Origin: Halobacterium litoreum
GTDB taxonomy: Archaea > Halobacteriota > Halobacteria > Halobacteriales > Halobacteriaceae
Direction: 5' to 3'
Assembly: GCF_021233415.1 (NCBI RefSeq)
Contig: NZ_CP089466.1
Span: forward strand, 2,170,001 to 2,234,000
Length of the DNA: 64,000 bases
In this document: positions 8,734 through 11,276 of the stretch, in pieces
Numbering within the stretch: the stretch's first letter is position 1
Layout: each line of letters begins with the position of its first letter
Program-made: the position numbers and the translations under genes
The notes under the pieces: model-generated
Told to the model about the DNA's origin: nothing
What the model saw: only the letters and a program-made list of their open reading frames with translations
Database searches by the model: none

Positions 8734-9360
8734 ATGAGCGACGACGACGCGATTACGATTTACTCGGACTACGTCTGCCCGTTCTGTTACCTCGGCCGGC
8801 AGTCCCTCGCCGAGTACCAGGAGACCCGCGAGGACGAGCTCGCCATCGACTGGCAGCCCTTCGACCTGCGCGCCCAGAAGCGCAACGACGACGGCTCAAT
8901 CGACCACGACGTCGACGACGGGAAAGACGAGGAGTACTACGAGGAGGCCAAGCAGAACGTCGAGCGCCTCAAGGAGGAGTACGGCGCCGACGAGATGACC
9001 GTCGACATCTCGCGGGACGTCGACTCGCTCCCGGCACAGGTGGCGTCGTTCTACGTGAACGAGGAGTACCCCGAGTCGTGGCTCGACTTCGACGTGGCCA
9101 TCTTCGAGGCGCTCTGGGAGGACGGCCGCGACATCGGCGACCGCGACGTGCTCGCCGACCTCGCCGAGGACGCGGGGCTGGACGGCGACGAGATTCGCGA
9201 GGTCGCGGGCGACGAGGAGTGGCGGAACCGCCTGCGCGAGCAGTTCAGCGAGGCCCGGGAGCGCGGCGTCTCGGGCGTGCCGACGTTCGCGTACGACGGC
9301 TACGGCGCGCGCGGCGCGGTGCCGCCGGAGCAACTCGAACGCCTCGTCGAGGGGACGTAG
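8734..9360 (+). CDS. DsbA-family (FrnE-like) thioredoxin-fold oxidoreductase
   Basis: This 208-residue protein starts YSDYVCPFCYLG, placing a CxxC active site at C15 and C18 in the DsbA/FrnE arrangement. A helical insertion follows, then the cis-proline loop GVSGVPTFAYDGYGARGAVP near the C-terminus. There is no signal peptide, so it is expected to act in the cytoplasm as a disulfide oxidoreductase or isomerase. FrnE-like proteins are tied to polyketide maturation or oxidative-stress tolerance in other organisms. A T-rich box (CTTTTC, 8704-8709) about 28 bases before ATG 8734 supports a leaderless start. Its stop abuts the stop of the convergent aldolase gene. Confidence 0.87.
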   Translation: MSDDDAITIYSDYVCPFCYLGRQSLAEYQETREDELAIDWQPFDLRAQKRNDDGSIDHDVDDGKDEEYYEEAKQNVERLKEEYGADEMTVDISRDVDSLPAQVASFYVNEEYPESWLDFDVAIFEALWEDGRDIGDRDVLADLAEDAGLDGDEIREVAGDEEWRNRLREQFSEARERGVSGVPTFAYDGYGARGAVPPEQLERLVEGT

Positions 9361-10125
9361 TTACTCCGACGCGGCGAGGAAGTCGCTGGCGCCCGAGCGC
9401 AGACAGCCGACGTCGGTGCCGGCGACCACGAAGTCCATCCCCCAGTCGTCGCGGCGCGTTTCCACTTGCTCGGGGGTGGTGGCGAGCGTGCCGACCGGGA
9501 CGCCGGCGTCCGCGGCGGCCGCGGTGACGCGCGCGACGGCCTCTCGGAACCCTTCGCTGTCGAACTCGCCGAACGCGCCGAGGCGCGCGGAGAGGTCGGC
9601 GGGCCCGACGAACAGCGCGTCGACGCCGTCGAGGGCGGCGATGGCGGCGGCGTCCTCGACGGCGCCCGGCGTCTCTATCTGGAGAATCGTGGCGACGCGG
9701 TCGTCGGCCGTTTCGACGTACTCGTCGATTTCCTCGCCGTACTCCGAGGCGCGACCGCCGGCGACGCCCCGGAGGCCAGCGGGCGGGTAGCGCGTCGCGG
9801 ACACGGCTTCGCGTGCTGCTTCGGCGTCCTCGATTTGGGGAATCACGACGCCCGCGGGCCCGAGGTCGAGGACGCGCCGAATCTCGGCGGGGTCGTCGCC
9901 GCTGGCGCGCACGACGGGGTCGGCGTCGCCGGTCGCGGCTTCGACGGCGCGCACGCCGTCGGCCAGCGTCTCTATCGTGTGTTCGGAGTGCTCGCCGTCG
10001 AGGACGACGAAGTCGAAGCCGTCGGCGGCGAGGAGTTCGGCGACGACGGGGCTCGGGATTGTCGACCAGACGCCGACCGGCGCGTCGCCGGCGCGGAGGG
10101 CTTCGGTGAGGGTACCTGCGTGCAT
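9361..10125 (-). CDS. HpcH/HpaI-family aldolase
   Basis: This 254-residue protein has the HpcH/HpaI TIM-barrel pattern: GVWSTIPSPVVAELLAADGF near the start, FVVLDGEHSEH, then VVIPQIEDAEAAREAV and the metal/substrate segment ILQIETPGAVEDAAAIAALDGVDALFVGPADLSA. Members cleave 2-keto-3-deoxy or 2,4-dihydroxy acids to pyruvate (or a keto acid) plus an aldehyde, using a divalent metal. The exact substrate cannot be told from sequence. I chose ATG 10125 because a CCTATTCG box lies about 26-33 bases upstream. The ORF extension to 10203 would run into the first copy of the repeated element. Confidence 0.85.
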   Translation of the reverse strand: MHAGTLTEALRAGDAPVGVWSTIPSPVVAELLAADGFDFVVLDGEHSEHTIETLADGVRAVEAATGDADPVVRASGDDPAEIRRVLDLGPAGVVIPQIEDAEAAREAVSATRYPPAGLRGVAGGRASEYGEEIDEYVETADDRVATILQIETPGAVEDAAAIAALDGVDALFVGPADLSARLGAFGEFDSEGFREAVARVTAAAADAGVPVGTLATTPEQVETRRDDWGMDFVVAGTDVGCLRSGASDFLAASE

Positions 10126-10181: not shown

Positions 10182-10216
10182 CTTTAAGTATCTCTGGCGA
10201 CAAGGTGTAGATACGA
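10182..10216 (+). repeat. 35-base repeat, copy 1 of 3
   Basis: The element begins CTTTAAGTATCT, has the core TCTGGCGACAAGGTGTAG and ends AGATACGA. GTATCT (10188-10193) and AGATAC (10209-10214) are inverted copies with a 15-base loop. CTTTAAG reads as a haloarchaeal TATA box, and the end of the repeat lies about 25 bases further on, where transcription would start. The strand is assigned on that basis; CTTTAAG is nearly palindromic, so the other direction is possible. Confidence 0.85.
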
Positions 10217-10321
10217 GCGAGGTGCGACGGGTTCTCCCGAGTGTTTTGGTCTCCAGCCGCGGCTGTGCGCGACGGAGCGCCAGTTGCGTGCCACCCCGGT
10301 TCTCCGACGAACCGCGACGTT

Positions 10322-10356
10322 CTTTAAGTGTCTCTGGCGATAAGGTGTAGATACGA
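10322..10356 (+). repeat. 35-base repeat, copy 2 of 3
   Basis: This copy differs from copy 1 at two positions (GTGTCT for GTATCT, GATAAGG for GACAAGG). The first change keeps the GTGTCT/AGATAC stem as a G-U wobble, which is weak evidence for an RNA or structural constraint. It starts 140 bases after copy 1. Confidence 0.85.
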
Positions 10357-10449
10357 AGGACTTCTCCCGACGCCACGACCCGCCAGCGACGGCTGTCGCG
10401 TCGGCGTCGGTTCTGGATTCGGCTGCGTCGTCCACCCCCGCGCTCGGTG

Positions 10450-10484
10450 CTTTAAGTGGTTCTGGCGACAAGGTGTAGATACGA
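10450..10484 (+). repeat. 35-base repeat, copy 3 of 3
   Basis: This copy keeps CTTTAAGT and the whole TCTGGCGACAAGGTGTAG core but reads GTGGTT where copy 1 has GTATCT, so its stem is only partly preserved. It starts 128 bases after copy 2 and 116 bases before the ATG of the RNA polymerase epsilon gene. Confidence 0.85.
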
Positions 10485-10532: not shown

Positions 10533-10561
10533 ATTTTAACCGTGGTCGTCCCGGAAGGAGG
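10533..10561 (+). promoter_or_regulatory. TATA-like box and strong Shine-Dalgarno before rpoeps
   Basis: ATTTTAACC (10533-10541) is a TATA-like box, and AGGAGG (10556-10561) is a perfect Shine-Dalgarno four bases before ATG 10566. A transcript starting about 25 bases after this box would barely contain the Shine-Dalgarno. It would be useful only on longer transcripts begun upstream, for example from the 35-base repeats. The Shine-Dalgarno fixes ATG 10566 over the upstream in-frame GTG 10542. Confidence 0.55.
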
Positions 10562-10565
10562 AGAT

Positions 10566-11276
10566 ATGAGTGCAGACCCCGGGACGCGCGTCCGGTGGGA
10601 GTCGGCCGACGACGAGCGCGTCGAACACCGACCCGGAGCGGGCGCGCTCTCCCGCGCGCAGGCCCAGCGCGACACGACGGTGCGGAAGTGGGGCGTCACG
10701 TCCCCGAGTGCCACCGTCATCGGGCGCGCCGAGACCCCGGAGGCGGACCTCTCGGAGAACGTGCGGCGACTCCACGACGAGCGCCACACCGCGACCGAGG
10801 GCCACAGCCGACGCGCGCACTACCTCGACCGCCTGCGCACCACGCAAGCCCTCTGTAACGCCGTGGACGTGACGCCGTGGCAACGAGACGTGGCGCTCGG
10901 CGTGATGGGCGACATCGACCTCACGGAGTTCGGGAGCCAGCGCGCCATCGAGAAGGTCGCGCTCGTCGTCATCCGGCACGTCGTGGACGTGGACCGCCGG
11001 CGCTACTTCGGCCTCGACGACCTCGACGCCGGCGACGTCTCTCCCGACCGGATGGCGGAGCTGTTCGAGCGGTACAAGGCCCGCGACGTGACCGACGAGC
11101 CCGCCTTCGAGTCGCTCGCGGACCGGTACGACCTCGACAAGACGAGTCTGAACCGCCTGCGGCGCGTGCTCACCGACCAACTGGACGACGGTCTGCCGGC
11201 GTTCGGCCGGAACCCCCACCGCGACCCCCACCTCCCGAGCGTCACGGAACGCGACCTGCCCGACGACGAGCAGTAG
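10566..11276 (+). CDS. rpoeps: DNA-directed RNA polymerase subunit epsilon (haloarchaeal)
   Basis: This 236-residue protein matches my recollection of the haloarchaeal RNA polymerase epsilon subunit. Matching segments are VRKWGVTSPSATVIGRAETP, ADLSENVRRLHDERHTATEGH, LRTTQALCNAVDVTPWQRD and FGSQRAIEKVALVVIRHVVD. The last stretch resembles a helical cyclin-like repeat of basal factors, and a C-terminal part (YDLDKTSLNRLRRVL) could be a helix-turn-helix. Classic biochemistry described an extra polymerase component in Halobacterium needed to transcribe native DNA; equating it with this family is established annotation, not something the sequence proves. The unusual repeat-bearing upstream region suggests elaborate regulation. 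Confidence 0.78.
   Translation: MSADPGTRVRWESADDERVEHRPGAGALSRAQAQRDTTVRKWGVTSPSATVIGRAETPEADLSENVRRLHDERHTATEGHSRRAHYLDRLRTTQALCNAVDVTPWQRDVALGVMGDIDLTEFGSQRAIEKVALVVIRHVVDVDRRRYFGLDDLDAGDVSPDRMAELFERYKARDVTDEPAFESLADRYDLDKTSLNRLRRVLTDQLDDGLPAFGRNPHRDPHLPSVTERDLPDDEQ

Follow-up and report, generated by a model that had tools for sequence, protein, structure and literature searches.

A tandem promoter-like element upstream of the RNA polymerase epsilon gene tracks the epsilon subunit across Halobacteriales

Three near-identical repeats upstream of rpoeps, the gene for RNA polymerase subunit epsilon (RpoEps), in Halobacterium litoreum appear to represent an order-wide promoter-like module that is tied to this subunit. 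The comparison of genome sequences suggests a special promoter class that either is read by the epsilon subunit or serves to control it, and the best reading is a dedicated class of promoters that would be recognised by RpoEps or autoregulated through it. Although the epsilon subunit of haloarchaeal polymerase has been known for decades, its role continues to be described as enigmatic; it is a subunit of the polymerase, and polymerase with RpoEps transcribes native DNA efficiently (PMC8305020).

Three repeats upstream of rpoeps

The window, i.e. the whole analysed stretch of 64,000 nt, contains the gene at 10566-11276 (plus strand, 236 aa). Because no Pfam or NCBIfam model matches RpoEps, the name was taken from the literature (OE_1279R, PMC8305020) and from the H. 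salinarum ortholog, and the gene is taken to be rpoeps on the assumption that the locus tags match; the identity with the relative in H. salinarum DSM 3754 is 71%. The repeats of 35 bases each are located on the plus strand at 10182-10216 (copy 1), 10322-10356 (copy 2), and 10450-10484 (copy 3), exactly as reported in the initial annotation, with start-to-start distances of 140 and then 128 bases. Pairwise, they differ at 2, 3, and 3 of the 35 positions. The 35-base element has three matches in the window versus none in 100 dinucleotide shuffles, and the whole 2.7 Mb genome contains only these three copies when up to 3 mismatches are allowed. In copy 1, the TATA box is at 10183-10189, the spacer box at 10192-10205, and the presumed start region at about 10208-10216. 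Copy 3 is closest to rpoeps, about 80 nt upstream of its start codon. A simple scan found no bacterial-type terminators between the copies, and no helical phasing was found among the tandem copies.

Two further features had been described for these repeats. The first, TTCTCCCGA followed by CAGC-N4-GCTG, is present on the plus strand downstream of copy 1 (10232-10265) and copy 2 (10362-10396), and its parts are enriched at other copies too; the 22-base internal offset is indeed the same in both, but the distance from the repeat to the start of the module is 10 bases longer for copy 1 than for copy 2. The second, an inverted pair (GTATCT/AGATAC), is present in copy 1 and lost in relatives, in which the left arm (element positions 8-10) varies while TAGATAC is nearly fixed; its interpretation as a hairpin or dyad was rejected.

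A strong ribosome-binding site is found immediately upstream of the rpoeps start codon. It had been argued that this Shine-Dalgarno motif makes sense only for leadered transcripts that start farther upstream. This argument carries little weight, since a separate TATA-like sequence, TTTTAACC (10533-10540, plus strand), belongs to rpoeps itself, about 30 nt upstream of the ATG and followed by GGAGGAG and the ATG, which could act as a proximal promoter element, as judged from its sequence.

Anatomy and distribution of the element

Across the salt-loving archaea, the element comprises 37 bases and is promoter-like. The module consists of the TATA box TTTAAGT, two free bases, the spacer box TTCTSGCGAYAAGG, which reads TTCTSGTCACAAGG in other families, and the start region NRTAGATACGA. 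The TATA box, spacer box, and start region are near-invariant among 152 distinct copies, in which positions 8, 9, 14, 19, and 24-26 are the variable ones. The distance from TTTAAGT to TAGATACGA is constant over all of these copies, i.e. they share the fixed distance between TATA box and start region that is expected of a core promoter. When 185 non-redundant copies from all families are compared, the conserved stretch is seen to run from about -10 to +44 relative to the TATA box, with conservation lost by about base 44-48, and it extends about 15 bases beyond the presumed start. Because this footprint matches the size of the archaeal initiation complex, the simplest interpretation is that the element is a promoter.

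Past about base 55 of the unit, no sequence conservation was found except for an AGC-N4-GCT palindrome. Between bases 55 and 85 it is overrepresented (28 of 143 AGC, versus 3 of 96 farther downstream; Fisher p = 1e-4). A second TTCT or TTTT occurs at base 40-42 or 49-52, and the second module of the initial annotation is this motif plus the palindrome. The positions of the second TTCT peak near 40 and 50-51; a phasing is not claimed because periods from 9.5 to 12 all fit about equally well. Tandem copies are spaced by a median of 134 bp (interquartile range 120-153 bp). Literature searches on OE_1279R and on the sequence of the box gave nothing beyond the annotation review, and no published start sites for OE_1279R.

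All 13 Halobacterium genomes searched contain the element, with 2-6 copies each. Among 392 Halobacteriales genomes, it was found in 121 at up to 3 mismatches, with up to 17 copies per genome, and a reversed control pattern had zero matches in any of the 392. In a scan of named genomes, Halorussus, Haladaptatus, Halococcus, Halospeciosus, Halomicrococcus, and Halobacterium had the element. The conservation in related genomes on which the first reading of the repeats had been made to depend is therefore found order-wide.

Strong RpoEps orthologs, defined as matches to the RpoEps profile at E < 1e-50, are encoded in 180 of the 392 genomes. Of the element-bearing genomes, 120 of 121 encode one; the sole exception (G015) is an 87% complete draft, in which the contig ends about 300 bases past the last element, at the position that rpoeps occupies in sister genomes. 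None of the other 211 genomes without strong RpoEps contains the element, including genomes of genera other than Halobacterium that have only a weak RpoEps paralog. The element is thus found where RpoEps occurs, as would be expected for the promoter sequence of a specificity factor. The association has a p value of 1e-53 by genome (Fisher; relatedness ignored) and of 1e-12 by genus (26 of 42 versus 0 of 53). Within each of the families f1, f4, f6, and f14, presence and absence are both represented and match between element and gene, so the association spans more than one independent gain or loss. To some extent the co-occurrence is trivial, as many copies simply form the region upstream of rpoeps; the non-trivial part is that distant copies are also confined to genomes with rpoeps.

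In sampled genomes that the strict search had missed, diverged copies were sought with a weight matrix. They precede rpoeps in most of these genomes (families f4, f5, f7, f8, and f9), often with the box TTCTSGTCACAAGG or the start region CGTAGTGAGG. The matrix recognised no copy upstream of rpoeps in G219, G122, G211, G223, and G023, the last of which has copies elsewhere in its genome.

Genomic context of the copies

The copy closest to rpoeps usually precedes the start codon by about 70-240 nt. Haladaptatus-type genomes and G019 have a further copy 58-97 nt past the stop codon of rpoeps, oriented towards the gene, and Halorussus has the same arrangement of copies facing the gene from the 3′ side. 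Many of the distant copies are not closely followed by a gene. Others are located upstream of a UbiA-family (menA-like) gene in Halorussus and upstream of an HTH_10 regulator in Halospeciosus.

In Halobacterium, all copies are located around the rpoeps/dsbA locus, and many form two clusters, one upstream of a dsbA/frnE-like gene and the other upstream of rpoeps. In other Halobacterium genomes, the dsbA/frnE-like gene has the element and adjoins rpoeps (L035-L045). In the window, this DsbA-family (FrnE-like) gene (8734-9360, plus strand) has no element copy, and a gene for an HpcH/HpaI aldolase (9361-10125, minus strand) lies between it and rpoeps. In family f8 (L181, L183, L199), a gene for a DsbA/FrnE-like oxidoreductase adjoins rpoeps as in Halobacterium, and elements also precede an RlaP-family gene (RNA repair pathway DNA polymerase beta family) that is located upstream of rpoeps.

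In Haladaptatus, many copies are located 10 nt past the stop codon of an SprT-like gene that is itself present in multiple copies, and no other gene follows within hundreds of bases. This SprT-like metalloprotease gene is often found near small SWIM zinc-finger genes (L074, L087, L114, L123, L132), and a GTTAGTA/TACTAAC palindrome follows about 100 nt beyond the element. The SprT-like gene, the element, and the palindrome together look like a dispersed cassette.

RpoEps and the possible readers of the element

The core of RpoEps (residues 76-208) was modelled with AlphaFold2 (mean pLDDT 79, pTM 0.73). In a Foldseek search with this model, the most probable matches were Brf2, TFIIB, and cyclins, with probabilities up to 0.77, E 0.95, and TM-scores of about 0.43-0.50; the fold matches, with best E values of 0.37 and 0.95, are not significant. 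Membership of the TFIIB/TFB family is not supported by sequence, as there was no Pfam match and the comparison with the haloarchaeal TFB profile was not significant (hhalign probability 0.2%); solved structures searched with the RpoEps sequence gave no match. The core may have a TFIIB/cyclin-like fold, and this is a lead only because neither the Foldseek matches nor the TFB profile comparison are significant. Some Halobacterium genomes contain diverged second RpoEps paralogs with 30-42% identity (G008:C4:100257-100736, G013:C1:435486-435881, G016:C2:571091-571396).

The initial annotation had offered stacked promoters, a tandem small-RNA family, or a multi-copy binding site. The fixed geometry of TATA box, conserved spacer, and start region and the retention before rpoeps in most families with the gene favour stacked promoters, with which a multi-copy binding site overlaps, while the small-RNA family is the weaker choice, as shown below. 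With a confidence just short of even, we propose that the repeats are tandem haloarchaeal core-promoter modules, that RpoEps is their likeliest reader as a promoter-specificity factor, and that the array is autoregulatory. RpoEps is the candidate reader because it is a polymerase subunit required to transcribe native DNA efficiently (PMC8305020), because it tracks the element, and because the likeliest fold matches of its core are TFIIB-related proteins and cyclins. Transcription would start near GATACGA, about 25-30 bases past the TATA box, and would yield leadered or short non-coding transcripts. In the most likely mechanism, RpoEps would act as a promoter-specificity factor that recognises the spacer box, and the array before rpoeps would then be an autoregulatory switch. 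Distant copies would form a small epsilon regulon of dsbA/frnE-like, rlaP, and menA-like genes and orphan sites. A more tentative proposal is that RpoEps is a TFIIB/cyclin-like promoter-specificity subunit with a promoter class of its own, marked by the TTCTSGCGAYAAGG spacer box, and autoregulation via the tandem array. Several points speak against a promoter read by RpoEps, i.e. the non-significant fold matches and TFB profile, the copies without a gene behind them, the copies on the 3′ side of rpoeps, and the four genomes G219, G122, G211, and G223 that have no upstream copy. If the proposal is true, an archaeal polymerase subunit would select promoters much as a sigma factor does. An order-wide element that tracks epsilon makes the role of this enigmatic subunit directly testable.

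It is less probable that the module is a TATA-overlapping operator-promoter of some ordinary regulator, with rpoeps as merely one of few targets. Haloarchaeal repressors often act between the TATA box and the start, which is where the spacer box is situated, and the preferred downstream positions of the second TTCT motif and of the AGC-N4-GCT palindrome are also compatible with an operator. Yet an independent regulator predicts distant copies in genomes without strong RpoEps as well, and the finding of such copies in none of the 211 disfavours it; in addition, no candidate regulator gene was found.

Each copy could also belong to a gene for a small non-coding RNA, of which it would form the promoter and the 5′ portion, with a family of such genes around rpoeps and some members antisense to its 3′ end; we regard this as rather unlikely. 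The tandem copies, the copies convergent on rpoeps, the orphan copies far from genes, the enrichment of AGC-N4-GCT within the presumed transcript, and strong hairpins in single copies would agree with it, and the orphan and convergent copies indicate that short non-coding transcripts may arise. However, the downstream folding energies of the 185 non-redundant copies equal those of shuffled sequences (mean z about 0), and this lack of excess RNA structure makes a structured small RNA less likely. The end of conservation past about base 55, save for the palindrome, and zero Rfam matches in the window point in the same direction. Some copies contain a hairpin with a TTCT loop, which was rejected as a general feature after a swap test over all copies gave a weak result (1.93 versus 1.71 +/- 0.08). 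A few copies (L063, L064, L154, L180, L181) have a strong hairpin directly past the presumed start, with the arms GGGACGGCC/GGCCGTCCC in L063 and ACCGACGC/GCGTCGGT in L180.

Remnants of a mobile or selfish repeat are very improbable. This reading is suggested by the Haladaptatus copies behind the SprT-like gene and near the palindrome, but copies outside Haladaptatus have no common flanks and vary freely outside the module, the position before rpoeps is kept in most families, and Halobacterium copies are confined to the rpoeps/dsbA locus.

The proposed RpoEps-linked promoter module can be compared with three known systems. It resembles the haloarchaeal core promoter (BRE, TATA box, and proximal element), which TBP and TFB read, in that TTTAAGT is a typical TATA box at a plausible distance from the start. 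In contrast to ordinary haloarchaeal promoters, the 20 bases between the TATA box and the presumed start are almost invariant, and the module is tandemly repeated and tracks one gene, rpoeps. The Halobacterium rRNA genes are preceded by several similar promoters in a row, and the array described here is comparable, although it precedes another gene and is not known to share their sequence. The third comparison is with alternative specificity factors, such as bacterial sigma factors and haloarchaeal TFB paralogs. RpoEps differs from these in having no significant sequence homology to TFB, and the likeness is drawn here from sequence and predicted fold. It consists of a conserved promoter sequence that is co-inherited with a candidate polymerase-associated factor, of copies before the gene of the factor itself, and of a predicted fold that weakly resembles Brf2/TFIIB.
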